Shown piece by piece: positions 40,029-58,314 of a stretch of DNA of 64,000 nt. The stretch is from contig NZ_SLWQ01000003.1 in the NCBI RefSeq assembly GCF_004342425.1, positions 186,001 to 250,000 of the forward strand, read 5' to 3'. A program made the translations under genes and the position numbers. The notes beneath the pieces are model-generated. The model saw only the letters and a program-made list of their open reading frames with translations, was not told the DNA's origin and did no database searches. How positions within the stretch are numbered: the stretch's first letter is position 1; the number at the start of each line of letters is the position of its first letter. This DNA comes from Dokdonella fugitiva (GTDB taxonomy: Bacteria > Pseudomonadota > Gammaproteobacteria > Xanthomonadales > Rhodanobacteraceae).

Positions 40029-40961
40029 ATGACGATCGGGGCAGGCTCGGTAGCGATGGATGCGCCGCAGGCCGGCGAGGCCGGCGGCTGGGTCGACCGC
40101 GTCGACCGGCTCGACCCGCGCGAGTTCCGCCAGCGCTACCTGGAGCCGCGCCGGCCGGTCGTGCTGCGCCACGCGCTCGAACGGTGGAGCGCGCCCGCGC
40201 GGTTCACCCCGGAGTTCTTCCTCGAACGCTATGCCGATCACCCGGTGCGCATCCGCGGCCGCCACTACCGCCTCGGCGAAGTCATCGCGCTGCAACGGGC
40301 CTCGAGCGAAGCGCAGCCGGCGCCGTACCCGTGCACGTTCGCCGAATGCGCCGACCTCATGGCGGATGTCACGCCGCGCTTCGCCTGCAGTCTGCCGAAC
40401 CGGCACACGAGCCCGTTCATGCCGAAGTCGGTGTTCGACCTCGTCAACCATCTCGAGATCTTCTTCGGCGGTCCGGGCGGCGAGTTCCCGTACCTGCACT
40501 ACGACATGCTGCGCATGCACGCGTGGATCGCCCAGGTGCATGGCGACAAGGAATTCACGTTGTACGAGCGCGGCCAGGAGCACCTGCTGTACGTGCACCC
40601 GGAAATGCCGTGGATGTCGCGCGTGGACGATCTGCACGACGTCGAGCGCTGGCCGCTGCTGCACCAGGCGCGGCGGCATCGCGTCGTCGTGCACGCGGGC
40701 GAGGCGCTCTTCATCCCGTGCGGCACCTGGCACACCGCGCGCTGCCTGACGATGAATATCACGGTCGCGTTCGACCAGCTCGAATCGAGCAACTGGCGCG
40801 AGTTCGTCCGCGACGTCGTGGTCGAGGAACGGCGCAAGGGCCATGCCGCGCGGGCGCGCTGGCTGGGCTTGTATCTCGGCCTGCTCGGGCCGATGCTGAC
40901 GCTCGCCGAACGCTGCGGCGCGAATCGCCGCGCGGACTGGGGCGTCGCGCGCCTGCATTGA
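40029..40961 (+). CDS. JmjC/cupin-8 iron-dependent hydroxylase, copy 1
   Basis: About 310 aa, first gene of the biosynthetic cluster. Cupin_8 (FIH-like) fold with the facial triad His157-x-Asp159 (LHYDMLR) and His235 (GTWHTAR), plus Lys174 in GDKEFTLY as a candidate 2-oxoglutarate contact. Such enzymes hydroxylate unactivated carbons using Fe(II), O2 and 2OG. It shares most of its core with the next gene. ATG 40029 has a weak AGG; an in-frame ATG at 39933 would add 32 residues that look non-conserved. The 217-nt upstream gap has a TAAAAT (39940-39945) as the only promoter-like hexamer. Confidence 0.83.
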   Translation: MTIGAGSVAMDAPQAGEAGGWVDRVDRLDPREFRQRYLEPRRPVVLRHALERWSAPARFTPEFFLERYADHPVRIRGRHYRLGEVIALQRASSEAQPAPYPCTFAECADLMADVTPRFACSLPNRHTSPFMPKSVFDLVNHLEIFFGGPGGEFPYLHYDMLRMHAWIAQVHGDKEFTLYERGQEHLLYVHPEMPWMSRVDDLHDVERWPLLHQARRHRVVVHAGEALFIPCGTWHTARCLTMNITVAFDQLESSNWREFVRDVVVEERRKGHAARARWLGLYLGLLGPMLTLAERCGANRRADWGVARLH

Positions 40962-41009
40962 CCGGACCGCCGGCGTCGCGCCGGCCGCAGCTTTTGGGAG
41001 GGGGCGAGC

Positions 41010-41948
41010 ATGAACACGACGCAAGCCGGCGTAGCCGGCGCCGTCACCGCCGTTGCCGGCGGCAGCAGCTGGGTCGACCGACGCAGCGGGCTCGGCGTCG
41101 ACGACTTCATCGCCGAGTACCGCGACCCGCGCCGGCCCGTCGTGCTCGGCGACGCGGCGCGCGCATGGCCGCTGTACGGGCGCGCCGATCCGGACTACTT
41201 CCGCCACACCTACGGCGAGCACGTCGTGCGCGTGCGCGGCCGCGACTACCGGCTCGCCGAACTCATCGACCTGCTCGAGGCCTCCACGGTCGACAAGCCG
41301 GGGCCGTATCCGTGCAAGTTCGAGATCGCCAAGACGTTCCGCGAACTGCTGCCCGAGGTGACGCCCCGCTTCGGCTACAGCCTGCCCGACCGGCAGGCGA
41401 ACCCGCTCGTGCCGCAGCGGCTGTTCTCCGGCGTCAACAACCTCGAGATCTTCTTCGGCGGCCCGGGCGGCGAGTTCCCGTACCTGCACTACGACGTGCT
41501 GCGCATGCACGCGTGGATCACGCAGCTGCACGGCGACAAGGAATTCACCCTCTACGCGCCGGGGCAGGAGCACCTGCTCTACGTCAACCCCGACATGCCG
41601 TGGCAGTCGTCGATCCGCGACCACCACCACCCCGATTACGACCGCTACCCGCTGTTCCGCGAGGCGAAGTGCCAGAAGGTCGTGGTACACGCGGGCGAAA
41701 CGCTGTTCCTGCCGTGCGGATGGTGGCATACCGCGCGCAGCCTCAACATGACGATTTCGGTCGCGTTCGACTCGCTCGGCCCGGACAACTGGAGCGACTT
41801 CGTCGGCGACGTCGTCGAGGAGCGCCGGCGCAATCGCAAGCCGCTCAAGGCGCTCGCGCTCGGGACCTGGCTGCGCGCGATCGGGCCGCTGCTCACGTTG
41901 CAGGAGCTCGGCGGCGCGAATCGCGGGACCCGCTGGGGCGCCCGATGA
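41010..41948 (+). CDS. JmjC/cupin-8 iron-dependent hydroxylase, copy 2
   Basis: 312 aa, a paralogue of the preceding gene (shared FFGGPGGEFPYLHYD, HGDKEFTLY, GQEHLLYV). Triad His160, Asp162, His240; the Lys of GDKEF is kept. A strong GGGAGGGGG lies before the ATG, 48 nt after the first cupin gene. The stop overlaps the next start as ATGA. Because both copies keep all metal ligands they probably act at different positions or on different intermediates, for example on prolyl-S-PCP made by the next gene; this is inference from position. Confidence 0.83.
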   Translation: MNTTQAGVAGAVTAVAGGSSWVDRRSGLGVDDFIAEYRDPRRPVVLGDAARAWPLYGRADPDYFRHTYGEHVVRVRGRDYRLAELIDLLEASTVDKPGPYPCKFEIAKTFRELLPEVTPRFGYSLPDRQANPLVPQRLFSGVNNLEIFFGGPGGEFPYLHYDVLRMHAWITQLHGDKEFTLYAPGQEHLLYVNPDMPWQSSIRDHHHPDYDRYPLFREAKCQKVVVHAGETLFLPCGWWHTARSLNMTISVAFDSLGPDNWSDFVGDVVEERRRNRKPLKALALGTWLRAIGPLLTLQELGGANRGTRWGAR

Positions 41949-43798
41949 CAGCGGGCGTGCCGTTGCAGGCGGAACGGCGCGCGGCTTCGCTGCTCGCGCC
42001 TTTGCTCGCGCATGCCCGGCACGCGACCCCGGCGTTGCGCGCCACCGGCGTCGAACTCGCTTACCCCGAGCTGCTCGCGCGCGCGGCGCTGCACGCGGAC
42101 GCGCTGCGCGACGCGGGCGTCGTCGCCGGCGACGTCGTCGCGCTGGCCGCGACGCGCAGCGCCGGGACGATCGCCGCGATCCTCGGCTGCATCGCGCGTG
42201 GCGCCGCCTACCTGCCGCTCGACCTCGATTTCCCCGCCGCGCGCCTCGCCGCGATGCTCGACGACGCGCGGCCACGCTGCTTTCACGGCGCGGCCGATGC
42301 GCGCGTGCCGGCCGGCGTCGCGCGCGTCGGCTGGCCGGCAGACGCGCCGGCCGCGCCGGCCGCGCCGCTGCGCGACGAGGTCGCCGGCGATCTCGCCTAC
42401 GTGCTGTTCACCTCGGGCTCGACCGGCCGGCCGAAAGGCGTCGCGATGCGCAGCGCCGCGGTCGCTGCGCTCATCGACTGGCATCGCGCGCATCCGCGCC
42501 TGGGCATGCCTGCGCGCACGCTGCAGTTCGCGCCGCTGGGTTTCGACGTGTCGTTCCAGGAGATCTTCTCGACGCTCGCGACCGGCGGCTGCCTCGTCCT
42601 GCCGAGCGAAGCCGAGCGGCGCGATCCGTACGCGCTGCTCGCCCTGCTCGAGCGCGAGCGCATCGAACGGCTGTTCCTGCCCTACGTCGGCCTGCAGGCG
42701 CTCGCCGAAGCCGTCGCCGCGGGCGGCGGCGTGCCGCATGCCTTGCGCGACATCGTCACCGCGGGCGAGCAACTGCGCGTCACGCCGGCGATCCGCGCGC
42801 TGTTCGCCGCGCTGCCCGGCGCGGTGCTGCACAATCACTATGGCCCGACCGAAACCCACGTCGTCACGGCGCACGAGCTCGCCGGCGATCCGGCGGCATG
42901 GCCGGAGCTGCCGCCGATCGGCACGCCGCTGCCGCACGTGCGCGTGCGCATCGTCGATGCCGCGCTCGCGCCGCTGCCGGACGGGGCCGAAGGCGAGCTG
43001 CTGCTCGGCGGCGGCTGCCTCGCGGCGGGCTACATCCACCGCCGCGAGCTCACCGCCGAACGGTTCATCGAACTCGACGGCGAGCGCTGGTATCGCAGCG
43101 GCGACCGCGCGCGGCGTGCCGCGGACGGCGTGCTCGACTGCCTCGGACGGCTCGACGACCAACTCAAGATCGACGGCTTCCGCATCGAACCGGCCGAGAT
43201 CGAGGCCGTGCTCTGCCGCCATCCCGCGGTGGCCGAGGCGGTCGTCGTCGCCGCCGACGGCGCCGGCGGCCGTCGCCTCGTCGCCCACGTGGTCGCGCGC
43301 GACGCGCGCGCCGACGCGGCCACGCTCGCCGATGATCTGCGCGCGCACTGCGCCGCGTCGCTGGCCGATTACCTCGTCCCGCACGCGGTGTCGGTGCACG
43401 CGATGCTGCCGCTGACCGCGAGTGGCAAGATCGACCGCCGCGCGCTCGCCGCGGCGCCGGCCGTCCAGTTGCGCTGGCTCGACGGCGCGCCCCTGCAGAA
43501 TCAACTTCTCGACTTGTGGAAGCAGCTGCTCGGGGTGGATGATCTGGACGTGGAAGCGAACCTGTTCGACCACGGCGCGCGCTCGCTGCTGGTCGTGCGC
43601 GCGCTGACCGAACTGCGGCGGCACGGGCACGTCCTCGGCGTCGCGCAGGCCTACGAGCACCCGACCGTCGCGGCGCAGGCGCGCGCGCTCGCCGCCGCGG
43701 CCGCGCCGGTCGCCGATGCCGCCGGCGAACGCGCGCGCGGCGCCGCGCAGCGCGCCGCCTTCACGCGCTTCGGCCCGCGCGCCGGAGGCACCCGATGA
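41945..43798 (+). CDS. NRPS adenylation-PCP didomain, predicted proline-specific
   Basis: 617 aa. A domain motifs: A3 LFTSGSTGRPKG (residues 154-165), A5 NHYGPTET, A7 YRSGDRAR, A8 GRLDDQLKIDGFRIEP, A10 TASGKIDR. A PCP follows with the phosphopantetheine Ser547 in DHGARSLL. Aligning to GrsA by hand gives pocket residues DVQFVAHVVK, close to the known proline code DVQLIAHVVK, so it should load L-proline or a near relative onto its own PCP. No condensation domain, so it is a loading or stand-alone module. Overlaps both neighbours by 4 nt. The 44 residues after the PCP are Ala/Arg-rich, possibly a docking tail. Confidence 0.88.
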   Translation: MTAGVPLQAERRAASLLAPLLAHARHATPALRATGVELAYPELLARAALHADALRDAGVVAGDVVALAATRSAGTIAAILGCIARGAAYLPLDLDFPAARLAAMLDDARPRCFHGAADARVPAGVARVGWPADAPAAPAAPLRDEVAGDLAYVLFTSGSTGRPKGVAMRSAAVAALIDWHRAHPRLGMPARTLQFAPLGFDVSFQEIFSTLATGGCLVLPSEAERRDPYALLALLERERIERLFLPYVGLQALAEAVAAGGGVPHALRDIVTAGEQLRVTPAIRALFAALPGAVLHNHYGPTETHVVTAHELAGDPAAWPELPPIGTPLPHVRVRIVDAALAPLPDGAEGELLLGGGCLAAGYIHRRELTAERFIELDGERWYRSGDRARRAADGVLDCLGRLDDQLKIDGFRIEPAEIEAVLCRHPAVAEAVVVAADGAGGRRLVAHVVARDARADAATLADDLRAHCAASLADYLVPHAVSVHAMLPLTASGKIDRRALAAAPAVQLRWLDGAPLQNQLLDLWKQLLGVDDLDVEANLFDHGARSLLVVRALTELRRHGHVLGVAQAYEHPTVAAQARALAAAAAPVADAAGERARGAAQRAAFTRFGPRAGGTR

Positions 43799-46700
43799 GC
43801 GGTCCCGCACTCGACGGCGTCGCGATCGTCGGCATGGCCGGGCGTTTCCCCGGTGCCGCATCGATCGACGAGCTGTGGCAGAACCTGCTCGCGGGACGCG
43901 AATCGATCACGCGCTTCGCGCCGGACGAACTCTCGCCGCTGGTACCGCGCGAACTGCGCGAGCATCCGCGCTACGTGCCGGCGCGCGGCATCATCGCCGG
44001 CGTCGAGCGCTTCGATGCGGCGTTCTTCGGCATTCCCGCGCGCGAGGCGCAGCTGATCGACCCGCAGCAGCGCGTGTTCCTCGAGCTCTGCTGGAACGCG
44101 CTCGAACACGCCGGCATCGATCCCGCGCGCGCAGGCGGCAGTATCGGCGTCTGGGCCGGTACGTCCAACAACGGCTATCGCAGGCTCGTCGACGCGCGCC
44201 CCGACATCGTCGCCGCGAGCGGCGAGTTCGCCGCGATGCTTGCCAACGAGAAGGATTACGTCGCGACGCGCGTCGCCCACCGGCTCGGCCTGACCGGCCC
44301 GGCGATCAGCCTGTACACGGCGTGCTCGACCTCGCTCGTCGCGGTCGCGCAGGCGTGGTACGCGCTCATGAGCTGGCAGTGCGACGTCGCGCTCGCCGGC
44401 GGCGTCAACGTGGTGGTGCCGCAGGAATCGGGCTACCTGCCTGCCGAAGGCGCGATCGAATCCGCCGACGGCCATTGCCGGCCGTTCGATGCCGAGGCGA
44501 GTGGCACCGTGTTCTCGTCCGGCGCCGGCGCCGTCGTGCTCAAGCGCCTGGCCGACGCGATCGAGCAGGGCGACACGATCTACGCGGTGATCCGCGGCGT
44601 CGGCGTCAACAACGACGGCGCCGACAAGGCGAGCTTCGGCGCCCCGAGCGTGCGCGGCCAGGCCGCGGCGATCCGCCTCGCGCTCGCGAGCGCGAACGTC
44701 GATGCGGGTTCGATCGGCTACGTCGAGGCGCACGGCACCGGCACGCCGCTCGGCGACCCGATCGAGGTCGAGGCGCTCACGCGCGCGTTCCGCGCCGACG
44801 GCGCCGCGCCCGCGTCCTGCTGGCTCGGATCGATCAAGGGCAATCTCGGCCACCTCGTCGCCGCCTCCGGCGTCGCCGGGCTGATCAAGGCGACCCTCGC
44901 GCTGCATCACGGTCGGATCCCGCCGACCGCGAACCTGCGCACGCCGAACCCCGAAATCGATTTCGGTGCGTCGCCGTTCCGCCTCGTGCAGGCGCCGGTC
45001 GAATGGCCGCGCGGCGCGCCGCCGCGGCGCGCCGGCGTGAGTTCGTTCGGCGTCGGCGGCACCAATGCGCACGTCGTGCTCGAGGAGGCGCCGCCCGCCG
45101 CCGCGCCGGGCCCGGCACGCCCGGCGAGCCTGCTCGTGCTGTCCGCGCGCGACGACGAGGCGTTGCAGCGCCGCGCCACGGATCTCGCCGCCCATCTCGC
45201 GCACGTGCAGGATGCCGACCTGGCGGATGTCGCCGCGACGCTCGCGCTCGGCCGCAAGCCGATGGCGTCGCGTGCCGCCGTGGTGGCACGCAGTGCGGCC
45301 CAGGCGCGCGACGCGCTCGCGCGCATCGCGCCGCAACGCGCCGGGCGGCCGAAGCTCGTGTTCCTGTTCCCCGGCCAGGGTTCGCAGCACGCGGACATGG
45401 CCCGCGAGCTGGCCGGGACCGAACCGGTGTTCGCCGAACACTTCGAGCGCTGCTGCGCGCTCGCGAGCGCCCGGCTCGGCCGCGACCTGCGCGCGCTGAT
45501 CCTGCCGGCGGCCGGCGAGGCGGCCGCGGCAGCGGCCGGACTCGCCGAAACACGCTGGACGCAGCCAGCGCTGTTCGCGGTCGAGTACGCGCTCGCGCGA
45601 TTGTGGGAAAGCTGGGGCATCGTCGCCGACACGATGATCGGCCACAGCATCGGCGAATACGTCGCGGCGACGCTCGCCGGCGTGTTCGAACTCGAGGACG
45701 CGATCGCGCTGGTGTGCGCGCGCGGTGCGGCGATGCAGGCGCAGCCGCCCGGGGCGATGCTCGCGGTGCGCGCGGTCGCGCAGGCGATCGCGCCGCGCCT
45801 CGGCGGCGGCGTCAGCCTCGCGGCGGTGAATGCGCCGGAACTGTGCGTCGTCGCCGGCACCGACACCGAGATCGGCGCCCTGGCCGTCTCGCTCGACGCC
45901 GAGCGCATCGCCAGCACGCGCCTCAAGGTGAGCCATGCATTCCATTCGGCCCTGATGGACGGCGCGTTGCCGCCGTTCGAGCGCGCGTTCGCGAACCTGC
46001 GCCTCGCGCCGCCGACGCGGCCGTTCTATTCGTGCGTGAGCGGCGCGCCGATCGACGCGCACGCTGCGGTGGAACCCGCGTACTGGTGCCGTCAGCTGCG
46101 CGAGCCCGTGCGCTTCGCCGATGCGATCGCGCACGCGATCGCCGACGGCGCGACCCTGTTCGTCGAAGTGGGTCCGTCGCAGGCGCTGACGACGTTCGCG
46201 CGCAGCCAGCTCGGCGAGGGCGGGCGCGCGGTCGCCTCGCTCGGCCCGGCGGCGAAGCCGGGCAGCGACGCCGAGCACCTCGCCGCCGCGCTCGGTGCGT
46301 GCTGGACTTGCGGCCGCGAACCGGATTGGGACGCGTACTACGCCGGGCAGGCGCGCCGCCGCGTCGCGCTGCCGGGTTACCCGTTCCGCGGCGAGCGTCA
46401 TTGGATCGATGTACCGACGCCGGCAGCGGGCGTCCCTGGGGAAACGAGCATGAAGGAAATCCATCCCGCGATCGTCGCGACGCCCGCGGCACCGCAGCCG
46501 ACGTCGCGCCTGCGCGCCGAGCTGCGCGAGCTGGTCGAGTCGCTTACCGGCGAACACCTCGCTGCCGCGCAGGACGAGGCGAGCTTCCTCGAACTCGGAC
46601 TCGATTCGCTGTCCCTGACGCAGGCCGCGCTCGAACTCGAGCGCCGCTACGGCCTCAAGCTGAAATTCCGCCGCCTCATGGAAGACGTCGACAGCATCGC

Positions 46701-49700
46701 CAAGCTCGCGACCTTGCTCGAGCCGACGCTGCCAGCGACGGCGCCGGCGCCGGCACCGATCGCGGCGAGCGCACCCGCGCCCGCGACCGTCGCTGCCGAC
46801 GCGGCATCGCCGCTGCTCGCGCTTATCCAGAGCCAGCAGGCGCTCATGCAGCAGCAGATGCAGCTGCTCGCGAGCCTCGCCACCGGCACCGGCGCCGCGC
46901 CGGCCGCGGCCGCGCCCGCGCCGGCGGCGGCGTCGCGCACCGACGAAGCGCCGCCCGCGGATCTCGTCGAGCGGCCGTTCGGCGCGTCCGCGCGCATCAC
47001 GCTGCGGCGCGACCACGCGATGACGCCGGCGCAGCGCGCCTGGGTCGACGACTTCACGCGCCGCTACAACGCGCGCACCGCGCGTTCGAAGGCATACGCG
47101 CAGGCGCACCGCGCGCGCATGGCCGACCCGCGCGTCGTCACCGGCTTCAATCCGCTGTGGAAGGAGCTCGTCTACCCGATCGTCGTCGAGCGCTCGAAGG
47201 GCGCGCTGCTGCACGACCTCGACGGCAACGAATACGTCGACTGCCTCAACTCCTTCGGCGCGAATTTCCTCGGCCACCAGCCCGACTACGTCGTCGCCGC
47301 GCTCAAGCGGCAGGCCGACGCCGGCTTCGAAGTCGGTCCGCAGCATCCCCTCGCCGGCGAGGTCGCCGAGCTCATCGCCGGCATGACCGGCATGGCGCGC
47401 GTCGCGTTCTGCAACACCGGCTCGGAAGCGGTCATGGGCGCGATGCGCATCGCGCGCACGGTCACCGGCCGGCGCACGATCGCGATCTTCACCAATTCCT
47501 ACCACGGCATCTTCGACGAAGTGATCGTGCGCGGCACGCGCAGCCTGCGCTCGCTCGCCGCCGCGCCGGGCATCCTCGCCAGCGCGGTCGAGAACGTGCT
47601 CGTGCTCGACTACGGCAGTGACGAAGCCTTGCGCGTGCTGCGCGAGCGCGCGCACGAGCTCGCCGCGATCATGATCGAGCCGGTGCAGGGCAAGAACCCG
47701 TCGCTGCAACCGCGCGCGTTCGTGCAGGCGCTGCGCACGATCTGCGACGACGCGGGCTGCGCGCTGATCTTCGACGAGGTCATCACCGGCTTCCGCGTCG
47801 CACAGGGCGGCGCACAGGCGTACTACGGCGTGCGCGCGGACATCGCCACCTACGGCAAGATCATCGGCGGCGGCCTGCCGTTCGCGGCGATCGCCGGCGC
47901 CCCGCGCTGGCTCGACGCGCTCGACGGCGGCGACTGGCGCTTCGGCGACGATTCGTATCCGGAAGCGGGCGTCACCTATTTCGCCGGCACCTTCGTGCGC
48001 CATCCGCTCGCGCTCGCCGCGGCGAAGGCCGCGCTGTTGCACCTGAAGCGGCGCGGGCCGGCACTGCAGGAAGAACTCAACGCGCGCACGCAGGACCTCG
48101 TCACGCGCCTCAATGCATTGTTCGACGAGCGCGGCGCGCCGCTGCGCGCGGTCGGTTTCAGTTCGCTCTGGCGCATCGTCGCCGACGAGGACCAGCCGTA
48201 CGCGAGCCTGTTCTGGTATGCGCTGCGCGCGAACGGCCTGCACCTGTACGAACAGTTCAACTGCTTCCTCACCGAGGCGCACGGCGCCGCCGAGGTCGAG
48301 CGCATCGTGGCCGCGGTGCGCGCGGCGCTCGACGGCCTGCTCGGCGCCGGCCTGCTCGTGCCGCGCGGCGGGGCGCGCGCGGGCGCGCCCGTGGCCGACG
48401 CCGGCGACGCGCCGGCGCTGCCCGACGCGATCCCTCTCACCGACGGCCAGCTCGAGAAGTGGCTCGGCTGCCAGTACGGCGCGAATGCCGCGCTCGCCTG
48501 CAACGAGGCGGTCGTGCTCACGTTCGACGGCGCGCTCGACGTCGGCGCGCTGCAGCGCGCGCTCGCCACGGTCTGGCACCGGCACGAGGCGTTCCGCTTC
48601 GCAATCGCCGCCGATGGACGCACGTTGTCGTTGCAGGCGTTGCCGCCGCTGCCGCTGCAACAGGTCGATCTCGCCGGCGAAGACGCACAGGCGCGCCTCG
48701 ACGCGTGGTGCGATCGCCAGATGCGCGCGCCGTTCGATCTGGCGCGCGCGCCGCTCGTGCGCTTCACGCTGCTCAGGCTCGGCGAGCATCGCCATGCGCT
48801 GCACCTGGTCGCGCATCACCTCATCATGGACGGCTGGTCGCTCGCCGTGTTCTGCGACGAGCTGCAGGCCTGCTACAACGCGTACGTGGGCGGGCGCGAG
48901 CCGCGCCTCGCGCCGGCGCAGAGCTTCCGCGCCTACGCGCTCGCCGAGCGCGCGCGCCGCGACGCCAACGGTGCCGCGCAGATCGCCTACTGGAACCGCG
49001 TCTACGCCGACATTCCCGCGCCGCTGGAACTGCCGGGCGACCGTCCGCACGTCGAAGACGCCGGCTTCGATGCCGACACGGAACGGCACGTGTTTCCCGC
49101 GCCGCTCGCCGCCGCGCTGCGCGCCGAGGCGCGCCGGCGCGGGGTGACGCTGTATGGCCTCCTGCTCGGTGCGTTCGGCCTGTTCGTCGCGCGCCTGTCG
49201 GGACAGCGTGATTTCGCCATCGCGATCCCGTTCTCCGGCCAGGCGCTCGCGGGCAGCGGCGCACTGATCGGCGACGGCGTCAATACCTTGCCGCTGCGCC
49301 TGCGCATCGACCCGCATGCCGGTGCCGACGCCGCGGTGTCGACCGCTCAGGCCGCGCTGCTCGACGCGGCCGAGCACCAGGACCTCACGCTGATGACGAT
49401 CCTGCGCGCGCGTTCGCTGCGCCGGCGCAGCGGGCGTGGCGCGCTCGGCGAAATCATCTTCAACCTCAATCCGCGCGTGCGCACGCCGCAGTTCGACGGC
49501 GTCGTCACCGAATGGCGCGACTGCCGCCACGTCGCGCTGCTGTGGGACCTGTTCTTCAACCTCAACGACGACGGGCGCCAGCTCGCGCTCGACCTGCACT
49601 ACCGCACCGCCCTGTACGACGCGGCGACGATCCGGCGCTGGATCGCCGGATACGAACGAATGCTCGAGGACATCGGCATGCAAACCCCTGACCCTGTGGC

Positions 49701-51576
49701 CGCACCGACGCGACCGGCGGCGACCGTGGCCGCCGCGGAGCCGCCGGCATCGCTCCCTGCAGTACGTCCCGGCCCCACGCTGCTCGATCTCGTCGAGGAG
49801 CAGGTGCGCGCGGCGCCCGAACGCATCGCGGTCAGCTGCGATACGCAGCGTTACACCTACGCCGACCTCTGGCGCGCGAGCGGCCGCGTCGCGTCGCGCC
49901 TGCTCGCCGCGGGCGTCGCGCGCGGCGACCTCGTCGGCATCTGCATGCCGAGGCGCAGTGAAATGGTCGCGGCCGCGCTCGGCGTGCTGCGCGCGGGTGC
50001 AGCCTACGTGCCGCTCGATTCGAGCTTCCCGGACAAGCGCCTGCGCACGATGATCGAACGCGCCGCGCTGCGCCACACGGTCGTCCTCGCCGGACACGAG
50101 CTGCCGGCCGCGGTGACCGAACACGATGCGGTGCTGGTCCCGGTCGACGATGCGGACATCCGCGCCGGCGGCGAGGACGAGGCGGCACTGCCGGCCGTCG
50201 GCGGCGCCGACCTCGCTTACGTGCTGTTCACGTCGGGGTCGACGGGCGAGCCGAAGGGCGTGCGCATCCTGCATCGCAACCTGGCCAATTTCCTCCGTTC
50301 GATGCGCGAATCGCCCGGCTTCGGGCCCGATGACGTCATCTGCGCGGTGACCACGCTGTCGTTCGACATCGCCGGGCTCGAGCTGTACCTGCCGCTCGTC
50401 AGCGGCGCGCGCGTGCACATCGCGACCGAAGCGGAAGTGCGCGATCCGCAGAAGACGATGGCCCTGATGAAGGCCTGCGGCGCGACCGTGCTGCAGACCA
50501 CGCCGACCCTGCTGCGCCTGCTCTGCGACGGCGGCCGCGTCGAAGGCCTCGCCGGCCTCAAGCTGCTCGTCGGTGGCGAAGCGATGCCGCGCGACCTCGC
50601 CAACGAGGTCGTGCGCCACTGCCGCGAACTGTGGAACATGTACGGCCCGACCGAAACCACGATCTGGTCGACGATCCATCGCGTCGAAGCCGGCGAGGGC
50701 CCCGTGCCGCTCGGCCGGCCGATCGCGAACACGCGCATCCACGTTCTCGACGAGGCGGGCCGCCCGCTCGGCGCGGGCGAGCGGGGCGAGATCTGGATCG
50801 GCGGCGACGGTGTCGCCGACGGCTACCTCAACCGGCCCGACCTCACCGCCGAACGATTCCGCGTCGATCCGTTCGCGGACGACGGCAGCCGCATGTACCG
50901 CACCGGCGACGTCGGCAGCCTCGAGGACGGCGTGCTGTATTTCCACGGCCGTGCCGACGACCAGGTGAAGCTGCGCGGGTTCCGCATCGAGCTCGGCGAC
51001 ATCGAAGCCGCCGCGCACGAGGACCCGCTCGTGCGCGAAGCCGCCGCCGCGGTGCGCGAATTCGGGTCGCACGACCAGCGCCTCGTGCTCTACGTGACCT
51101 CGCGCGACCGCTACGGCGACCTCGCCGGTCGCCTGCGCGAGCGCCTGCGCGAATCGCTGCCGCCGTACATGCGGCCGAACCACATCGTCGTGCTCGAAAC
51201 GATGCCGACCACGCCGAACGGCAAGACCGACCGCAAGGCGCTGCCGATGCCGTCCGAGCAGGGCGGCCACGCCGATGACGCCACGTCCGCGCCGGTCGAC
51301 GCGCGCGTGAACTACCTCGCCGCGCTCTGGTGCGAACTCATCGGCGTCGCCGAGGCACGCGTCGACGACAACTTCTTCGACCTCGGCGGCGATTCGCTGC
51401 TCGCGGTCGACATGATGGCGCGCGTCGAACGCGAAACCGGCGTGCGCCTCAACGTGCTCGCGATCGCCACCGGCACGCTCGGCAGCGTGGCCGAGATGCT
51501 GCCGCGCGAACGCGCGGCGAAACAGGGCGGCTGGATGTCGCGCCTGCGCGGCCTGTTCGGCGGGCGCGGCGGATGA
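43795..51576 (+). CDS. Hybrid PKS-aminotransferase-NRPS megasynthase
   Basis: 2593 aa. In order: KS (1-430; Cys177 in TACSTS, His313, His353), AT (520-870; GHSIGEY Ser618, HAFH 714-717 indicating malonyl-CoA), ACP (Ser938 in LGLDSL), Gln/Ala-rich linker, glutamate-1-semialdehyde-type aminotransferase (1055-1480; PLP Lys1355 in TYGKIIGGGLP), condensation domain (1545-1960; HHLIMDG, His1675), adenylation (2000-2480; pocket DILQLGMIWK by hand, a glycine-type code), PCP (Ser2534 in LGGDSL). No KR, DH or TE. The KS-AT-ACP-AmT-C-A-PCP order matches the core of MycA/ItuA (mycosubtilin, iturin), which makes beta-amino acids, but without their acyl-ligase/ACP front. Expected chemistry: starter + malonyl, beta-amination, then coupling to glycine. 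Starter could be the prolyl unit from the preceding gene. Release must be in trans. Confidence 0.92.
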   Translation: MSGPALDGVAIVGMAGRFPGAASIDELWQNLLAGRESITRFAPDELSPLVPRELREHPRYVPARGIIAGVERFDAAFFGIPAREAQLIDPQQRVFLELCWNALEHAGIDPARAGGSIGVWAGTSNNGYRRLVDARPDIVAASGEFAAMLANEKDYVATRVAHRLGLTGPAISLYTACSTSLVAVAQAWYALMSWQCDVALAGGVNVVVPQESGYLPAEGAIESADGHCRPFDAEASGTVFSSGAGAVVLKRLADAIEQGDTIYAVIRGVGVNNDGADKASFGAPSVRGQAAAIRLALASANVDAGSIGYVEAHGTGTPLGDPIEVEALTRAFRADGAAPASCWLGSIKGNLGHLVAASGVAGLIKATLALHHGRIPPTANLRTPNPEIDFGASPFRLVQAPVEWPRGAPPRRAGVSSFGVGGTNAHVVLEEAPPAAAPGPARPASLLVLSARDDEALQRRATDLAAHLAHVQDADLADVAATLALGRKPMASRAAVVARSAAQARDALARIAPQRAGRPKLVFLFPGQGSQHADMARELAGTEPVFAEHFERCCALASARLGRDLRALILPAAGEAAAAAAGLAETRWTQPALFAVEYALARLWESWGIVADTMIGHSIGEYVAATLAGVFELEDAIALVCARGAAMQAQPPGAMLAVRAVAQAIAPRLGGGVSLAAVNAPELCVVAGTDTEIGALAVSLDAERIASTRLKVSHAFHSALMDGALPPFERAFANLRLAPPTRPFYSCVSGAPIDAHAAVEPAYWCRQLREPVRFADAIAHAIADGATLFVEVGPSQALTTFARSQLGEGGRAVASLGPAAKPGSDAEHLAAALGACWTCGREPDWDAYYAGQARRRVALPGYPFRGERHWIDVPTPAAGVPGETSMKEIHPAIVATPAAPQPTSRLRAELRELVESLTGEHLAAAQDEASFLELGLDSLSLTQAALELERRYGLKLKFRRLMEDVDSIAKLATLLEPTLPATAPAPAPIAASAPAPATVAADAASPLLALIQSQQALMQQQMQLLASLATGTGAAPAAAAPAPAAASRTDEAPPADLVERPFGASARITLRRDHAMTPAQRAWVDDFTRRYNARTARSKAYAQAHRARMADPRVVTGFNPLWKELVYPIVVERSKGALLHDLDGNEYVDCLNSFGANFLGHQPDYVVAALKRQADAGFEVGPQHPLAGEVAELIAGMTGMARVAFCNTGSEAVMGAMRIARTVTGRRTIAIFTNSYHGIFDEVIVRGTRSLRSLAAAPGILASAVENVLVLDYGSDEALRVLRERAHELAAIMIEPVQGKNPSLQPRAFVQALRTICDDAGCALIFDEVITGFRVAQGGAQAYYGVRADIATYGKIIGGGLPFAAIAGAPRWLDALDGGDWRFGDDSYPEAGVTYFAGTFVRHPLALAAAKAALLHLKRRGPALQEELNARTQDLVTRLNALFDERGAPLRAVGFSSLWRIVADEDQPYASLFWYALRANGLHLYEQFNCFLTEAHGAAEVERIVAAVRAALDGLLGAGLLVPRGGARAGAPVADAGDAPALPDAIPLTDGQLEKWLGCQYGANAALACNEAVVLTFDGALDVGALQRALATVWHRHEAFRFAIAADGRTLSLQALPPLPLQQVDLAGEDAQARLDAWCDRQMRAPFDLARAPLVRFTLLRLGEHRHALHLVAHHLIMDGWSLAVFCDELQACYNAYVGGREPRLAPAQSFRAYALAERARRDANGAAQIAYWNRVYADIPAPLELPGDRPHVEDAGFDADTERHVFPAPLAAALRAEARRRGVTLYGLLLGAFGLFVARLSGQRDFAIAIPFSGQALAGSGALIGDGVNTLPLRLRIDPHAGADAAVSTAQAALLDAAEHQDLTLMTILRARSLRRRSGRGALGEIIFNLNPRVRTPQFDGVVTEWRDCRHVALLWDLFFNLNDDGRQLALDLHYRTALYDAATIRRWIAGYERMLEDIGMQTPDPVAAPTRPAATVAAAEPPASLPAVRPGPTLLDLVEEQVRAAPERIAVSCDTQRYTYADLWRASGRVASRLLAAGVARGDLVGICMPRRSEMVAAALGVLRAGAAYVPLDSSFPDKRLRTMIERAALRHTVVLAGHELPAAVTEHDAVLVPVDDADIRAGGEDEAALPAVGGADLAYVLFTSGSTGEPKGVRILHRNLANFLRSMRESPGFGPDDVICAVTTLSFDIAGLELYLPLVSGARVHIATEAEVRDPQKTMALMKACGATVLQTTPTLLRLLCDGGRVEGLAGLKLLVGGEAMPRDLANEVVRHCRELWNMYGPTETTIWSTIHRVEAGEGPVPLGRPIANTRIHVLDEAGRPLGAGERGEIWIGGDGVADGYLNRPDLTAERFRVDPFADDGSRMYRTGDVGSLEDGVLYFHGRADDQVKLRGFRIELGDIEAAAHEDPLVREAAAAVREFGSHDQRLVLYVTSRDRYGDLAGRLRERLRESLPPYMRPNHIVVLETMPTTPNGKTDRKALPMPSEQGGHADDATSAPVDARVNYLAALWCELIGVAEARVDDNFFDLGGDSLLAVDMMARVERETGVRLNVLAIATGTLGSVAEMLPRERAAKQGGWMSRLRGLFGGRGG

Positions 51577-52400
51577 CGGCGACGATCGCACGGCCGGCGC
51601 CGGAGCGCGCCGGCGAGGCCCTGCACGAGTTCGCGTTCGCGGGTGCGCCGGAGCGGCGCCTGTTCACCGTGTTCCGCGCCGCGCGCGGCACGGCGCGCGC
51701 AGCGCTCGTGCTCTGCCCGCCGTTCTTCCACGAACAGTTCCTGAGCTACCGCCTGCTCTCGCTCGTCGCGGCGCGGCTGGCCGAGCGCGGCATCGCGAGC
51801 CTGCGTTTCGACTACTACGGCAGCGGTGATTCGTGGGGCGACGAACGCGCGTTCACGCTCGACGGCGCCTGCGCCGATGCCGGAACGGCGCTCGCCGAAG
51901 TCACGCGCCGCGTGCCCGGCGTGCCGCTGGTCGCGTTCGGCGCGCGCGCCGGCGCATGGCCGGCTGCGCGGCTCGCGCGACAGCATCGCCTGCCGCTGTG
52001 GTTGTGGCAACCGCTCACGGACGGCCGTGCATGGCTCGACGAGCTCGTCGCGATGGACGCGCGCGAGCGAGCTTCGCGATTGCGTTATCCGTTCATCGGC
52101 ACGCAGCCGAAAGCGGCCGATCCGGAGCGCCTGCTCGCCTCGTACTGTCCGCCTGCACTGCGCGCGCAGATCGCGGCCGAGCGGCTCGACGACCTGCTCG
52201 GCGACGGCCTGTCCGACGTGCACGTCGTCGACGACGAGCGCGCCGCGCCGATCGCGCACGCACGCCAGCGCCTCGCCCTGCCGGCCGCGGCCGCGGGCTG
52301 GCACGAGCAGATCGACCTGCGCGCGACCTTCATCACGCCGCCGGTCGCGGCGTGCATCGACGCGCTCGCCCAGGCGGCGCCCGGCGGAGGGACGGCATGA
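51573..52400 (+). CDS. Alpha/beta hydrolase with R in place of the elbow Ser
   Basis: 275 aa, S33-like. CPPFFHEQFLSYRLLSLVAARLAERGIASLRFDYYGSGDSWG is the usual oxyanion and strand region, but the nucleophile elbow reads G-A-R-A-G (VAFGARAGAW), so Ser is replaced by Arg. This recalls the exosortase-A-associated hydrolase 2 family, whose members as I remember carry a similar G-x-R-x-G. It is likely non-catalytic or acts unusually. ATGA overlap with both neighbours; encoded right after a TE-less synthase, it may scaffold or assist product release. Confidence 0.78.
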   Translation: MTATIARPAPERAGEALHEFAFAGAPERRLFTVFRAARGTARAALVLCPPFFHEQFLSYRLLSLVAARLAERGIASLRFDYYGSGDSWGDERAFTLDGACADAGTALAEVTRRVPGVPLVAFGARAGAWPAARLARQHRLPLWLWQPLTDGRAWLDELVAMDARERASRLRYPFIGTQPKAADPERLLASYCPPALRAQIAAERLDDLLGDGLSDVHVVDDERAAPIAHARQRLALPAAAAGWHEQIDLRATFITPPVAACIDALAQAAPGGGTA

Positions 52401-53179
52401 TCGAGGAAACGCCGATCGACCTCGGCCTCGGCCTCACCGGCGTGCTCACGCGCCCTGCACAGCCGACGCGCCGGCCGCTGTGGGTGCTGCTCAACGCCGG
52501 CTTCATCCCGCGCTCGGGCCCATTCCGCATGCACGTCGACCTCGCGCGCCAGCTCGCCGCGCAGGGGTTCGCGGTGCTGCGCGTCGACCAGCCCGGCGTC
52601 GGCGACGCGCCGCCCAAGCGTGGCGACGACATCGCGGTGATCCGCCACGGCTTCGACCGCCTCGCCGAGCTCGCCGGCGCCGACCGCTTCATCATCGGCG
52701 GACTGTGCAGCGCGGCCGACCAGGGCTGGAAGGTCGCGCTCGCCGACGAACGCGTCTGCGGCCTGCTCCTGCTCGACCCGTACGCGCACCGCGGCGCGTG
52801 GTTCCGCATCGGCCAACTGCAGCTCCTGCTCGGCCGCGGCGCGTCGGCGCTGAAGACCCTGCTCGGCCGTTTCACGCGGCGCCGGCGCGCGCCCGCGATC
52901 GGCGACGGCAACATGCGCGACTGGCCGTCGCTCGCCGCCGCGCGCGTCGAACTCGGCCGGCTCGTCGCGCGCGAAGTCGGCGTGTTCGCGCTCTACACCG
53001 GCGGCGCCGCCGCGTACTTCACGCACCGCGCGCAGTTCGCCGCGACGTTCGGCGCGGCGGCCGCGGCGCCGTGCGTGCATTTCGACCATTGGCCCGACTG
53101 CGACCACATGTTCATGCGCGTGCAGGATCGCGCACGCCTGTTGCAGGCGATCGGCGACTGGGGCCGGGCCTTCGCATGA
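52397..53179 (+). CDS. Alpha/beta hydrolase with Cys nucleophile elbow
   Basis: 260 aa, hydrolase-1-like partner of the preceding gene. NAGFIPRSGPFRMHVDLARQLAAQGFAVLRVDQPGVGDAP leads to IIGGLCSAADQGW, an elbow G-L-C-S-A with Cys where Ser is normal; a Cys nucleophile is compatible with thioesterase/acyltransferase chemistry. An Asp (in LLLDPYAHRG) and a late His (CDHMFMR) could complete a triad. A good candidate for releasing the peptidyl thioester from the last PCP, by hydrolysis or transfer. Overlaps neighbours by 4 nt. Confidence 0.78.
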   Translation: MIEETPIDLGLGLTGVLTRPAQPTRRPLWVLLNAGFIPRSGPFRMHVDLARQLAAQGFAVLRVDQPGVGDAPPKRGDDIAVIRHGFDRLAELAGADRFIIGGLCSAADQGWKVALADERVCGLLLLDPYAHRGAWFRIGQLQLLLGRGASALKTLLGRFTRRRRAPAIGDGNMRDWPSLAAARVELGRLVAREVGVFALYTGGAAAYFTHRAQFAATFGAAAAAPCVHFDHWPDCDHMFMRVQDRARLLQAIGDWGRAFA

Positions 53180-54867
53180 CGCAGCGTGCCGATGCCGCCG
53201 CGCCGACGCCGCTGTACGCGCCGTTGCCGCCGGGATGCCGTGCGCTGCGCGTGGTCGCCCTCGTCGATCGCGAGGTCGTGCCCGCGTGGATCGCCGAGGC
53301 GCTCGCCGCGCTGGCGGCCGACGACGCCTGCGAACTGGTCGCGGTGCTGCGTGCGCCGCTGCCGCCGCCGCGGCCGCGCCATCGCGCGATCGACGCGTTC
53401 GTGCGCATCGATGCCGCGCTCGCCGGCGCGGCGCGCAAGGCGACCGCCGCGGTCGCCTTGCGCGATCGCCTCGCCGGCGTGCCGCTGCACGACGTCGTCG
53501 CGCGCGAGGATGCCGGCGGGCTCGCGCTCGACGAGCGCGCGGCGGCGCTGCTGCGCGCGCTCGAAGCCGACCTGCTGCTGGGTTTCGGCCTGCCGCCGCC
53601 GACGCCGGCGGTGCGCGCGCTCGCGCGTCGTGGCGCCTGGTTCCTCGAGCGCGACGCCACCGACGCACGCCGGCACGGCCTGCGCCATCTCGACGCGTTG
53701 CGCCGCGGCGACGCGGTGAGCCGCGGCGGCGTCGTCATGCACGACGGCGACGGCTGGCGCCTGTGCGGCGGCGACGACTGGAGCGCGACCGCGCAACTCT
53801 CGTTCGCGCGCAACCGCGCGTACCAGTTGCTGCGCGTGCCAGCGATCCTCGTGCGCCTGCTGCGCCATCTCGCCGCGGGCCAAGCGCCGACGGGCGAAAC
53901 AGTGCCCGCGTTCACGCCACCCGGCGTGATCGCGACCGTGCTGCTCGCGTTGCGCCTCGCCGCACGCGCGCTGCGCCGGCATCTGCCGCGCCTCGGGCGC
54001 GCCGAGGACTGGGTGCTCGCGGCGCGCCGCACCGACGCGCCGCTCGACCCCGCACGACCGGATGCGCAGGGGTTGCGCGTGCTGGCGACGCCGCCCGGCC
54101 GGTTCTGGGCCGACCCGTCGCTCGTCCACCATGAAGGGCGCGACTGGCTGTTCGTCGAGGAGTATCCCTACGCGACGCGGCGCGGGCGCATCGCGGTCGC
54201 CGAGCTCGACGCCACGCTCGCGCCGATAAACGTGCGCACGGTGTTCGACGAACCATGGCACCTGTCCTACCCGCTCGTGTACGAATGGCAGGGCGAGCTC
54301 TGGCTCACGGTCGAGTCCTCCGCGGCACGCACGTTCGCATTGCATCGTGCGATCGAATTCCCGGCGCGCTGGGCGTTCGCGGCGGAACTGCTGCGCGGCC
54401 GCAACGCGGTCGACGGTACCCTGCATCATGACGGCACGCACTGGTACCTGTTCGCCTGCATCAGCGAGAGCCCGCTCGACGTCGACCGCCGCGTGTGGAC
54501 CGACCTGTTCCTGTTCGTCGCCGACTCGCCGCTCGGACCGTGGCGCGCGCATCCGGCCAATCCGCTCCTCAGCGACGTGCGTCGCGCGCGACCGGCCGGC
54601 AAGCTGTTCGCGCACGAGGGGCGCCTGATCCGTCCCGCGCAGGATTGCAGCGTCGACTACGGCTACGCGGTGGTCTTCAACGAAGTCGTCGCGCTCGATC
54701 CACAGCGCTACGAGGAGCGGCCGCTCGGTCGCATCGAACCCGACTGGCTGCGCGGCCTGCGCGGCTGCCACACCTACAACCGCGGCGCCGGCATCGAGAT
54801 CGTCGACGGCAAGCGGCTCGTGCCGCGCCGGCACCTGCGCGCCGCGACGACACCGGAGTCCCCGTGA
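53176..54867 (+). CDS. Formyltransferase-like/beta-propeller fusion protein
   Basis: 563 aa. Residues about 20-240 have a formyltransferase-N-like Rossmann outline (LRVVALVDREVVPAWIAEAL..., DLLLGFGLPPP..., GAWFLERD, LRHLDALRRGD) but the HxSLLP-type catalytic site is not visible. Residues about 300-560 resemble a GH43-like five-bladed propeller of the GINT1 N-terminal type (FWADPSLVHHEGRDWLFVEEY, DGTLHHDGTHWYLF, NPLLSDVRRARPAGKLF, QDCSVDYGYAVVF). This fusion occurs in bacterial glycan loci. Role here unproven: sugar modification or transfer onto the peptide product is plausible, given the GalE next door. Overlaps neighbours by 4 nt. Confidence 0.65.
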   Translation: MTQRADAAAPTPLYAPLPPGCRALRVVALVDREVVPAWIAEALAALAADDACELVAVLRAPLPPPRPRHRAIDAFVRIDAALAGAARKATAAVALRDRLAGVPLHDVVAREDAGGLALDERAAALLRALEADLLLGFGLPPPTPAVRALARRGAWFLERDATDARRHGLRHLDALRRGDAVSRGGVVMHDGDGWRLCGGDDWSATAQLSFARNRAYQLLRVPAILVRLLRHLAAGQAPTGETVPAFTPPGVIATVLLALRLAARALRRHLPRLGRAEDWVLAARRTDAPLDPARPDAQGLRVLATPPGRFWADPSLVHHEGRDWLFVEEYPYATRRGRIAVAELDATLAPINVRTVFDEPWHLSYPLVYEWQGELWLTVESSAARTFALHRAIEFPARWAFAAELLRGRNAVDGTLHHDGTHWYLFACISESPLDVDRRVWTDLFLFVADSPLGPWRAHPANPLLSDVRRARPAGKLFAHEGRLIRPAQDCSVDYGYAVVFNEVVALDPQRYEERPLGRIEPDWLRGLRGCHTYNRGAGIEIVDGKRLVPRRHLRAATTPESP

Positions 54868-55856
54868 GCACGAAGACCGTCCTCGTCACCGGCGGCGCCG
54901 GCTACATCGGCAGTCACGTCGTGCGCCAGCTGCGCGAAGCCGGCACGGCGGTGGTCGTGCTCGACGACCTCAGCACCGGCTTCCGCGAAGCGGTGCTCGA
55001 CGCGCCGCTGGTGGTCGGCAACACCGGTGACGCCGCGCTCGTCGACGCGGTGCTGCGCGAACACCATGTCGACGCCGTGCTGCACTTCGCCGCGCGCACG
55101 ATCGTGCCGGAATCGGTCGCCGACCCGCTGCGCTACTACGCCAACAACACCTGCGCGACGCGCAACCTGCTCGAGGCCTGCGTGCGCCACGGCGTGCGTC
55201 GCTTCGTGTTCTCCTCGACCGCCGCCGTGTACGGCCCGACCGCGGACGGCCGCGCGGGCGAGGACACGCCGACGCAGCCGATCAGTCCGTACGGCTGTTC
55301 CAAGCTCATGAGCGAATGGATGCTGCGCGACCTCGACGCGAACGGCAGCATGAAGCACGTGATCCTGCGCTACTTCAACGTCGCCGGCTGCGACCCGCAC
55401 GGGCGCATCGGTCATTCGACGCGCGATTCGACCCTGCTGTTCAAGGTCGCCTGCGAAGTCGCGGTCGGCAAGCGCGGGGAACTCGCGATCTTCGGCACCG
55501 ACTACGCGACACCCGACGGCACCGGCATCCGCGACTTCATCCACGTCGAGGATCTCGCCGATGCGCACCTGCGCGCGCTCGATCACCTCGATCGTGGCGG
55601 CGCGTCGACGACGCTCAATTGCGGCTATGGCCACGGCTACTCGGTGCGCGAAGTGATCGCCGCGGTCGAACGCGCGAGCGGCGCGCCGCTGCGCGTGGTC
55701 GAGCGCCCGCGCCGCGACGGTGACATTCCCGCGCTGGTCGCGGATGCGCGACGCATCCGCGACGTGCTCGGCTGGACGCCGCGCCACGACGACCTCGACC
55801 TCATCGCGCGCACCGCGCTCGCATGGGAACGCAGGCTCGCCGCGCGCGGGGCGTGA
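54864..55856 (+). CDS. galE: UDP-glucose 4-epimerase family protein
   Basis: 330 aa, extended SDR. Starts GTG 54864 in a GTGA overlap. NAD motif TGGAGYIGSH, VFSSTAAVYG (catalytic Ser), and YGCSKLMSEWMLRDL with Y-x-x-x-K; HVEDLADAHLRALDHL and the TLNCGYGHGYSVREVI end are GalE/GalE-like. It interconverts UDP-Glc/Gal or UDP-GlcNAc/GalNAc; the exact sugar cannot be told. Last gene of the cluster; five bases separate its stop from the convergent minus-strand gene. Confidence 0.9.
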   Translation: MSTKTVLVTGGAGYIGSHVVRQLREAGTAVVVLDDLSTGFREAVLDAPLVVGNTGDAALVDAVLREHHVDAVLHFAARTIVPESVADPLRYYANNTCATRNLLEACVRHGVRRFVFSSTAAVYGPTADGRAGEDTPTQPISPYGCSKLMSEWMLRDLDANGSMKHVILRYFNVAGCDPHGRIGHSTRDSTLLFKVACEVAVGKRGELAIFGTDYATPDGTGIRDFIHVEDLADAHLRALDHLDRGGASTTLNCGYGHGYSVREVIAAVERASGAPLRVVERPRRDGDIPALVADARRIRDVLGWTPRHDDLDLIARTALAWERRLAARGA

Positions 55857-58254: not shown

Positions 58255-58314
58255 CGTTGTCGCGCGCGCACGGGCGTGCTACGTAGCGACGGTTTTCCGC
58301 CGCAGGTGCCCCTC

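Follow-up and report, generated by a model that had tools for sequence, protein, structure and literature searches.

The question raised by this locus is what a compact hybrid polyketide-peptide assembly line makes and where its product ends up. Eight plus-strand genes at 40029–55856 of the window (the whole 64,000-nucleotide stretch of Dokdonella fugitiva DNA that was analysed) were all recovered on re-checking, and adjacent genes overlap by 4 nt (ATGA/GTGA) at six of the seven junctions, the first pair being separated by a 48-nt gap, in agreement with the initial annotation. The eight-gene set recurs in other genomes, which rules out a chance arrangement of reading frames. The cluster borders originally drawn at the ends of these genes proved too narrow, as the locus seems to extend to glmS and epsB on the left and to a DUF218 gene and an exopolysaccharide (EPS) operon on the right. 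The features, in window positions, are as follows.

35669–37501, minus strand: glmS, glucosamine-6-phosphate synthase (SIS and GATase Pfam domains), marking the left edge of the locus and transcribed divergently from epsB
37700–39100, plus strand: epsB, polyprenyl-phosphate hexose-1-phosphate transferase of XrtA-type EPS loci (TIGR03013, 544 bits; cut-off 393)
39110–39784, minus strand: small DnaJ-domain protein (PF00226, 31.8 bits, above cut-off)
40029–40961, plus strand: Cupin_8/JmjC Fe(II)/2-oxoglutarate hydroxylase 1 (PF13621, 79 bits)
41010–41948, plus strand: Cupin_8/JmjC Fe(II)/2-oxoglutarate hydroxylase 2 (PF13621, 105 bits)
41945–43798, plus strand: A1-PCP1 loading module with a Pro-type code (AMP-binding and PP-binding Pfam domains, A code)
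43795–51576, plus strand: KS-AT-ACP-AmT-C-A2-PCP2 megasynthase, 2593 aa (Pfam domains, motifs, A code)
47050–48372, plus strand: PLP aminotransferase (AmT) domain of the megasynthase, predicted to convert beta-keto to beta-amine (phmmer match to MycA, lysine motif)
51573–52400, plus strand: hyd2, alpha/beta-hydrolase, homologue of XrtA hydrolase 2 (TIGR03101, 63 bits, under cut-off)
52397–53179, plus strand: hyd1, alpha/beta-hydrolase, homologue of XrtA hydrolase 1 (TIGR03100, 52.5 bits, under cut-off)
53176–54867, plus strand: prop, formyltransferase fold plus GH43-like propeller (PF24793, 115 bits; fold matches)
54864–55856, plus strand: galE, UDP-hexose 4-epimerase (TIGR01179, 433 bits; cut-off 262)
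55862–57340, minus strand: protein with a signal-peptide-like start and no family (no Pfam match above cut-off)
57481–58254, plus strand: DUF218/YdcF membrane protein (PF02698, 80 bits)

The reverse-strand gene at 55862 has a paralogue at 63126–64376. It was rejected as a membrane protein because hydropathy shows no transmembrane segments, and its product is treated as secreted.

A Pfam scan of the megasynthase gave the order KS, AT, PP-binding, Aminotran_3, Condensation, AMP-binding and PP-binding, with the KS starting at residue 9 and no KR domain found, the AmT standing in its place. When the loading module and megasynthase were checked for motifs, every assembly-line motif inspected was intact, including the KS catalytic C/H/H triad, the carrier serines of the ACP, PCP2 and the loading PCP1, the AmT lysine motif YGKIIGGG, the C-domain HHLIMDG and all A-domain cores, so that the domain order and catalytic residues first reported were borne out. 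The AT contains GHSIGEY together with HAFH, the usual malonyl signature, and the best PDB match of the AmT in phmmer was the MycA aminotransferase 6kfm (E 1e-114), the MycA structure 6kfu also being among the best matches. The A1 code, DVQFVAHVVK, is of the proline type, near-identical codes (DVQYVAHVVK and DVQYIAHVVK) having been assigned to Pro in PMC9113097, while the A2 code, DILQLGMIWK, exactly matches that given for Gly-activating domains in PMC12283262. These codes predict Pro and Gly but prove neither substrate; taken with the HAFH motif and the MycA-like AmT, they lend sequence support to the chemistry proposed by the initial annotation (proline, malonyl extension, beta-amination, glycine), which is plausible. 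The two hydroxylases named there were both matched by Cupin_8 (PF13621) with the HxD...H motif conserved, the nearest solved structures to hydroxylase 2 being JMJD5 and FIH, and the epimerase was identified as GalE. Pfam and TIGR profile scans of the eight genes detected no thioesterase domain, no dedicated exporter and no ordinary natural-product glycosyltransferase.

The two hydrolases, previously described only as odd, are by profile match distant homologues of exosortase-A-system hydrolases 1 (hyd1) and 2 (hyd2), with scores far under the curated cut-offs (52.5 vs 168 bits for TIGR03100 and 63 vs 203 bits for TIGR03101). In hyd1, a Cys nucleophile lies in GGLCSAA, the true XrtA hydrolase 1 members reading GLCDAA where GLCSAA is found here, and this Cys is conserved wherever the motif could be read, making hyd1 a candidate release or transfer enzyme. 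A nucleophilic Ser is absent from hyd2, which rules it out as a classical serine thioesterase; Arg occupies the nucleophile position in a GxRxG motif common to the hyd2 group and true XrtA members among sequences with a readable motif.

For prop, the structure model (pLDDT 92.8) comprises a formyltransferase-fold domain (residues ~1–274) and a GH43-like five-bladed propeller (~290–550). The full-length model matched propellers only and the N-domain was therefore modelled and searched separately. Residues 1–274 aligned with methionyl-tRNA formyltransferase (VIA-align Z 13.7 over 179 residues, rmsd 3.3) and ArnA (Z 13.0), the latter also being a profile match (E 2.6e-5), and residues 291–547 reached Z 22 to GH43/62/130-type propellers. 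The initial description of a formyltransferase-like/propeller fusion thus stands at the level of the fold but not of catalysis: the catalytic Asn-x-His of formyltransferases (PF00551) is absent from prop, where the position reads WFLERDATD. This motif is lost across the NRPS-linked subfamily, and prop was rejected as an active formyltransferase, while prop relatives outside NRPS loci retain WSxHHxD at the catalytic site. The relative in L034 is 880 aa long with a fused GT2 domain. Prop is a candidate transferase to a sugar.

The eight genes sit inside a Dokdonella-like (Lysobacterales) exopolysaccharide locus. Upstream of the synthetase, epsB is separated from it by the opposite-strand DnaJ-domain gene, and just past the window end, at 250.8–267.3 kb of the contig, lies a complete, Wzx/Wzy-type EPS operon of 13 genes. 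It encodes a MurJ-type flippase, an O-antigen ligase homologue, glycosyltransferases, a tyrosine kinase, two amidotransferase-like proteins, a NodB-type deacetylase, a TIGR03016-like outer-membrane protein and a TIGR03027 export protein (208 bits; cut-off 180). This operon is convergent to the eight genes and starts ~9 kb from galE, which, like the intervening DnaJ-domain gene, counts against a role of the eight genes in EPS decoration. A true XrtA system was also considered and rejected, as a search of the organism's own genome, which is 100% complete, for the exosortase (TIGR02602) gave nothing at E<=0.001; this and the low hydrolase scores likewise count against the EPS reading.

The same arrangement was followed in relatives. 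Dokdonella fugitiva RH2WT43 contains the whole gene set at 83–92% identity per gene. Nearly all Lysobacterales relatives with readable flanks have epsB next to the synthetase, and in most of them it lies 0.8–3 kb from the first A domain; L021, where it is not adjacent to the synthetase, counts against an EPS function. GlmS adjoins epsB also in L019, L020 and L150–L153 and adjoins the synthetase or prop in L021 and L023/L030, and DnaJ-domain homologues are found at the equivalent place in most relatives. Seven Lysobacter, Luteimonas and Pseudoxanthomonas-type loci have a phosphopantetheinyl transferase gene before epsB, placing assembly-line genes on both sides of it. Downstream of prop, a Wzx-type flippase homologue occurs within 0.04–6.2 kb in 11 loci and the DUF218/YdcF family (cluster c9) in 12, and the family of the 55862 gene (cluster c4) is found beside such gene clusters in 10. 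In two congeners without the synthetase (G007 and G008), the corresponding glmS-epsB locus encodes a free ACP together with a TIGR03098-like ligase, and in other Gammaproteobacteria (L161 and L162) NRPS(-PKS-AmT)-hyd2-hyd1 has as neighbour a Wzx flippase, an epsB-type transferase or both. Among relatives, variation is found in the first A code (Pro, Val, Ser-like), and the terminal code remains Gly-like, several of its variants (DILALG, DILQIA, DMPQIG) being putative Gly codes, a weaker point of the EPS reading. PMC11451712 mentions a cis-AT hybrid from Lysobacter, uncharacterised and with a single PKS module, that may be of the same type.

The most probable explanation, with moderate confidence, is that a carrier-bound, Gly-terminated peptide-polyketide is transferred to an EPS sugar, the eight genes being the acyl-donor module of the EPS locus. 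In its favour stand epsB upstream and its retention in relatives, there often flanked by the phosphopantetheinyl transferase gene, the adjoining EPS operon, the Wzx-type flippase homologues beyond prop, the GT2 fusion in L034, the nucleophile positions that the hydrolases have in common with true XrtA members, the ACP and ligase of G007 and G008, the arrangement in L161 and L162, the pattern of A codes and the lack of an exporter among the eight genes. Domain content and motifs, A codes, locus context and conservation, hydrolase homology and the prop fold are seen in the sequences; substrate loading, reaction order, transfer to a sugar and the transferring enzyme are inferred as follows. Proline would be loaded onto PCP1 by A1 and condensed with malonyl-ACP by the KS, the AmT would convert the beta-keto thioester to a beta-amine, and the C domain would join this to glycine on PCP2 to give a 3-amino-3-(pyrrolidin-2-yl)propanoyl-glycyl thioester, which either or both of the JmjC enzymes would hydroxylate, perhaps at its pyrrolidine ring. 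Since no thioesterase domain is present, the glycyl thioester would be taken up by the Cys nucleophile of hyd1, perhaps with hyd2, which together with prop would pass the acyl unit to an amine or hydroxyl of the EpsB-initiated lipid-linked sugar, prop contributing a formyltransferase-fold domain minus formyl chemistry and a sugar-binding-type propeller. Assembly of the decorated polymer and its export would then fall to the flippase, ligase and export proteins encoded by the adjoining operon. That these loci form a recurrent EPS class new to the literature, in Lysobacterales and scattered Gammaproteobacteria, in which a Gly-terminated beta-amino acyl unit made by a full NRPS-PKS-AmT line is attached to the polymer by hyd2-hyd1(-prop), we regard as an evenly balanced proposition.

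Co-location of synthetase and EPS genes could also come from a shared genomic hot spot, and the product might then be a small peptide-polyketide that hyd1 sets free for secretion, with a core like that of detoxin/rimosamide in beta-amino form. The Pro unit, C2 extension and hydroxylation resemble the detoxin/rimosamide-like compounds in PMC12828459, the same site in relatives holds assembly lines of differing length, and in one relative, L158, NRPS-hyd2-hyd1 is followed downstream by an ABC transporter, as would fit a free product. However, the cluster itself lacks exporter and thioesterase, the hydrolase pair and prop-type proteins are also found in EPS loci, epsB stays by the synthetase in several genera, often with the flanking phosphopantetheinyl transferase gene, and in congeners the free ACP and ligase fill the slot, leaving a free product possible but rather unlikely.

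The initial annotation had suggested that the product is perhaps glycosylated, which probably assigns the sugar the wrong role: with epsB on one side of the cluster and a full EPS operon on the other, a glycan is likelier the acceptor than a tailoring group. An assembly-line aglycone with a sugar from epsB, galE or prop would fit an operon that ends in galE and a prop with a sugar-binding-type propeller, but with no ordinary glycosyltransferase in the eight genes, a full polymer export set adjoining, and an EpsB family that acts on a polyprenyl carrier, it is improbable. Less probable still, and very unlikely, is that the peptidyl unit caps or primes the lipid-linked sugar or the end of the polymer; the priming enzyme epsB is indeed the nearest and most constant partner, but the sequences give nothing to tell a terminal from a repeating position. 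Overall, the observations of the initial annotation were confirmed and its interpretation partly supported, the EPS context having been missed.

If transfer to EPS is correct, assembly-line biosynthesis, mostly studied for free small molecules, also makes covalent EPS decorations, and sugar polymers gain cationic beta-amino acid groups of diverse kinds. The ligase and hydrolases associated with exosortase A, so far uncharacterised, would then have a suggested role, and 'orphan' PKS-NRPS clusters of this type in Lysobacter would need a new classification. The idea is directly testable by EPS chemistry, as strains such as D. fugitiva RH2WT43 can be cultured.

As the initial annotation had supposed, no characterised counterpart of the gene set was found in the papers searched, nor was a described NRPS-EPS locus of this kind in literature consisting mainly of open papers. 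Several known systems share parts of it. MycA/ItuA of mycosubtilin and iturin, in which the AmT converts a beta-keto thioester to a beta-amine, have the same KS-AT-ACP-AmT-C-A-PCP core, and the likeness drawn earlier holds to that extent but not at the start, where they have an N-terminal fatty acyl-AMP ligase and ACP on the same chain; here a separate Pro-type A-PCP supplies the starter, a thioesterase domain is absent and the setting is an EPS locus. In Nod factor N-acylation, NodB deacetylates and NodA transfers the acyl group from a carrier protein; similarly, the EPS operon encodes a NodB-type deacetylase without signal peptide, and the donor would be carrier-bound, but no NodA homologue was identified, the donor is a peptide-polyketide and the predicted product a polymer. 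XrtA/PEP-CTERM EPS loci share the TIGR03013 epsB and TIGR03027 export protein, both above cut-off, as well as a homologous hydrolase pair, amidotransferase-like proteins and an O-antigen ligase homologue, whereas here a full PKS-NRPS replaces the ligase/ACP, the genome is without an exosortase match and the hydrolases score under the cut-offs; the 2006 PEP-CTERM/EpsH paper (PMC1569441) leaves the ligase and hydrolases unmentioned. The detoxin/rimosamide-like NRPS-PKS systems, as covered by the available part of PMC12828459, combine a Pro unit, one C2 extension and ring hydroxylation, as is predicted here, but use a KR to form a beta-hydroxyl where an AmT is found here, and that part mentions no polysaccharide genes, in contrast to the adjoining EPS genes and the Cupin_8/JmjC-type hydroxylases of this locus. 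Lincosamide synthetase, according to PMC4351081, forms an amide bond between an amino acid activated in NRPS fashion and an amino sugar, comparable to the transfer proposed here, with no PKS extension and a small-molecule product, whereas the Dokdonella locus adds a PKS extension and its predicted product is a polymer.

The eight genes described in the initial annotation proved to be real and complete; Pfam and other profile scans confirmed the domain content and order given there, and the catalytic motifs that were checked are all intact, as had been claimed. The first junction in the operon is a 48-nt gap and six are 4-nt overlaps.

40029-40961, forward, Cupin_8/JmjC hydroxylase
41010-41948, forward, Cupin_8/JmjC hydroxylase
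41945-43798, forward, A1-PCP1
43795-51576, forward, megasynthase KS-AT-ACP-AmT-C-A2-PCP2
51573-52400, forward, hyd2, homologue of exosortase-A-system (XrtA) hydrolase 2
52397-53179, forward, hyd1, homologue of XrtA-system hydrolase 1
53176-54867, forward, prop, formyltransferase-fold domain and GH43-like propeller
54864-55856, forward, galE

Alignment to GrsA gave the code DVQFVAHVVK for A1, near-identical to the proline codes DVQYVAHVVK and DVQYIAHVVK (PMC9113097), and DILQLGMIWK for A2, a code reported for four Gly-activating domains (PMC12283262). Among solved structures the best match for the AmT domain was the MycA aminotransferase (E 1e-114), with glutamate-semialdehyde aminomutases far behind, and a Pfam scan of the operon proteins found no KR, DH, ER or TE. 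The AT domain carries HAFH, the usual malonyl motif. From these features, the straightforward prediction for the megasynthase-bound product is a 3-amino-3-(pyrrolidin-2-yl)propanoyl-glycyl thioester. One of the two JmjC/Cupin_8 hydroxylases was searched against the PDB, and its nearest matches, JMJD5 and FIH, would fit hydroxylation of an amino acid unit. The pathway proposed earlier (Pro loading, malonyl extension, beta-amination, Gly coupling) thus stands on its codes, HAFH motif and MycA-like AmT as a prediction, with a meaning that is changed by its setting in an exopolysaccharide (EPS) locus.

In the host genome (4.28 Mb, Lysobacterales; closest relatives by locus in Dokdonella), the locus around the assembly line is an XrtA-type EPS locus, but the genome yielded no exosortase.

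left of the operon, reverse, glmS
37700-39100, left of the operon, forward, epsB, polyprenyl-phosphate hexose-1-phosphate transferase, TIGR03013 over cut-off
64762-81297 (contig 250.8-267.3 kb, beyond the window end), reverse, 13-gene EPS operon

The EPS operon encodes a MurJ-type flippase, an O-antigen ligase homologue, two amidotransferase-like proteins, glycosyltransferases, a NodB-type deacetylase without signal peptide, a TIGR03016-like outer-membrane protein, a tyrosine kinase and a TIGR03027 export protein; three of the 13 genes (two glycosyltransferases and the chain-length protein) were named from sequence look only. It is followed by glmU and then ATP synthase genes, named from protein sequence starts. 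A small DnaJ-domain gene (39110-39784, reverse) separates epsB from the assembly line, a position it keeps in most relatives, and a possible regulator of the locus with N-terminal TrmB-type and C-end LuxR-type HTH domains (58306-59313, forward) lies between the assembly-line operon and the EPS genes. The region is also flanked by probably secreted paralogues without assigned family (55862-57340 and 63126-64376, both reverse), several copies of which adjoin the cluster in related locus L032. A large 1087-aa protein, probably secreted (59754-63017, forward), lies next to the locus and is likewise present at the D. fugitiva cluster (L027).

In tblastn searches with the window's proteins, three Dokdonella relatives (L018, L019, L020) shared this gene order, and it recurred with differing numbers of modules in genomes of Lysobacter, Luteimonas, Pseudoxanthomonas and Silanimonas; in these the hyd2-hyd1-prop series comes directly after the last NRPS module. 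In nearly all loci with readable flank epsB adjoins the synthetase, usually with 0.8-3 kb between it and the first A domain; it is on the other strand in L107 and at the cluster's far end in L153, and the clear exception is L021, where the neighbour is glmS. A PPTase gene precedes epsB in seven loci, and a Wzx-type flippase homologue lies 0.04-6.2 kb past prop in eleven. AmT is absent from L021, L109, L110, L113, L114 and L116, indicating that beta-amination is a variable step. In L116 (Luteimonas granuli) the cluster has an additional KS-AT-ACP and a further A module, which suggests that assembly lines of this type lengthen one whole module at a time.

The observed parts, codes, folds, locus and conservation make it most likely that the eight genes serve to decorate a sugar of the exopolysaccharide with a beta-amino acyl unit that is carrier-bound and ends in glycine, with hyd1, hyd2 and prop as the putative transfer set. 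Its main rival is that the cluster makes a free natural product and lies in an EPS hot spot. Among the relatives, Dokdonella, Silanimonas, LIN-94, Luteimonas granuli, SCN 69-320 and one Pseudoxanthomonas have a Pro-type first A code, five others a Val-type code (DALWxGGTFK) and one a Ser-like code, whereas the last A code throughout Lysobacterales is DILQLGMIWK or closely similar; a variable head with a constant, glycine-like tail would fit a common transfer step in which the tail is recognised. The relatives' loci, being related by descent, are not independent trials.

The AlphaFold2 model of prop has two confident domains (pLDDT 92.8), and predicted-structure comparison identified the C-domain as a GH43/62/130-type propeller (Z 22). 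Modelled by itself (pLDDT 93.3), the N-domain matched methionyl-tRNA formyltransferase (Z 13.7) and the sugar N-formyltransferase ArnA (Z 13.0). The histidine motif WSxHHxD is kept in relatives outside NRPS loci (L038, L050, L063) and missing from NRPS-linked prop proteins. In L034 a GT2 domain is fused to prop, and prop has the same length in L024, L037 and L044 as in L034. We infer that prop may place another acyl group on a sugar, which fits the lost formyl chemistry, the kept sugar N-acyltransferase fold and the GT2 fusion. The Burkholderia/Caballeronia loci L054, L055 and L058 contain shorter prop relatives (418-458 aa), whose neighbours are MurJ-type flippases and glycosyltransferase/asparagine-synthase genes.

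Ten of 16 Dokdonella genomes contain epsB. Genomes G007 and G008 lack the synthetase and prop, and their glmS-epsB locus holds a free ACP (82/88 aa) and a ligase with TIGR03098 (exosortase-A-associated ligase) as best NCBIfam match, below cut-off; neither was found in the part of G009 read. The synthetase thus occupies a slot in which other members have a simpler carrier-protein system. The hydrolases also matched XrtA families under cut-off (hyd2 to TIGR03101, 63 bits; hyd1 to TIGR03100, 52.5 bits), and a class-wide search returned, besides true TIGR03100 members, a group that is intermediate between the two. Several members of this middle group follow NRPS or PKS-AmT-NRPS genes, in the order synthetase, hyd2, hyd1, in Gammaproteobacteria outside the genus (L154, L155, L156, L158, L161, L162); the stretches read there gave no prop match. 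L161 and L162 also have a Wzx-type flippase, and L161 an epsB-type transferase. Such pairs also occur in L157 (two pairs), L159 and L163, in contexts without an NRPS match. The nucleophile position is Cys in all hyd1-type proteins with readable motif (GLCSAA in the present hyd1, GLCDAA in true XrtA members), and in hyd2-type proteins Ser is replaced by Arg. Through these shared nucleophile traits and the middle group behind NRPS genes, the hydrolase pair links classical XrtA loci with assembly-line loci.
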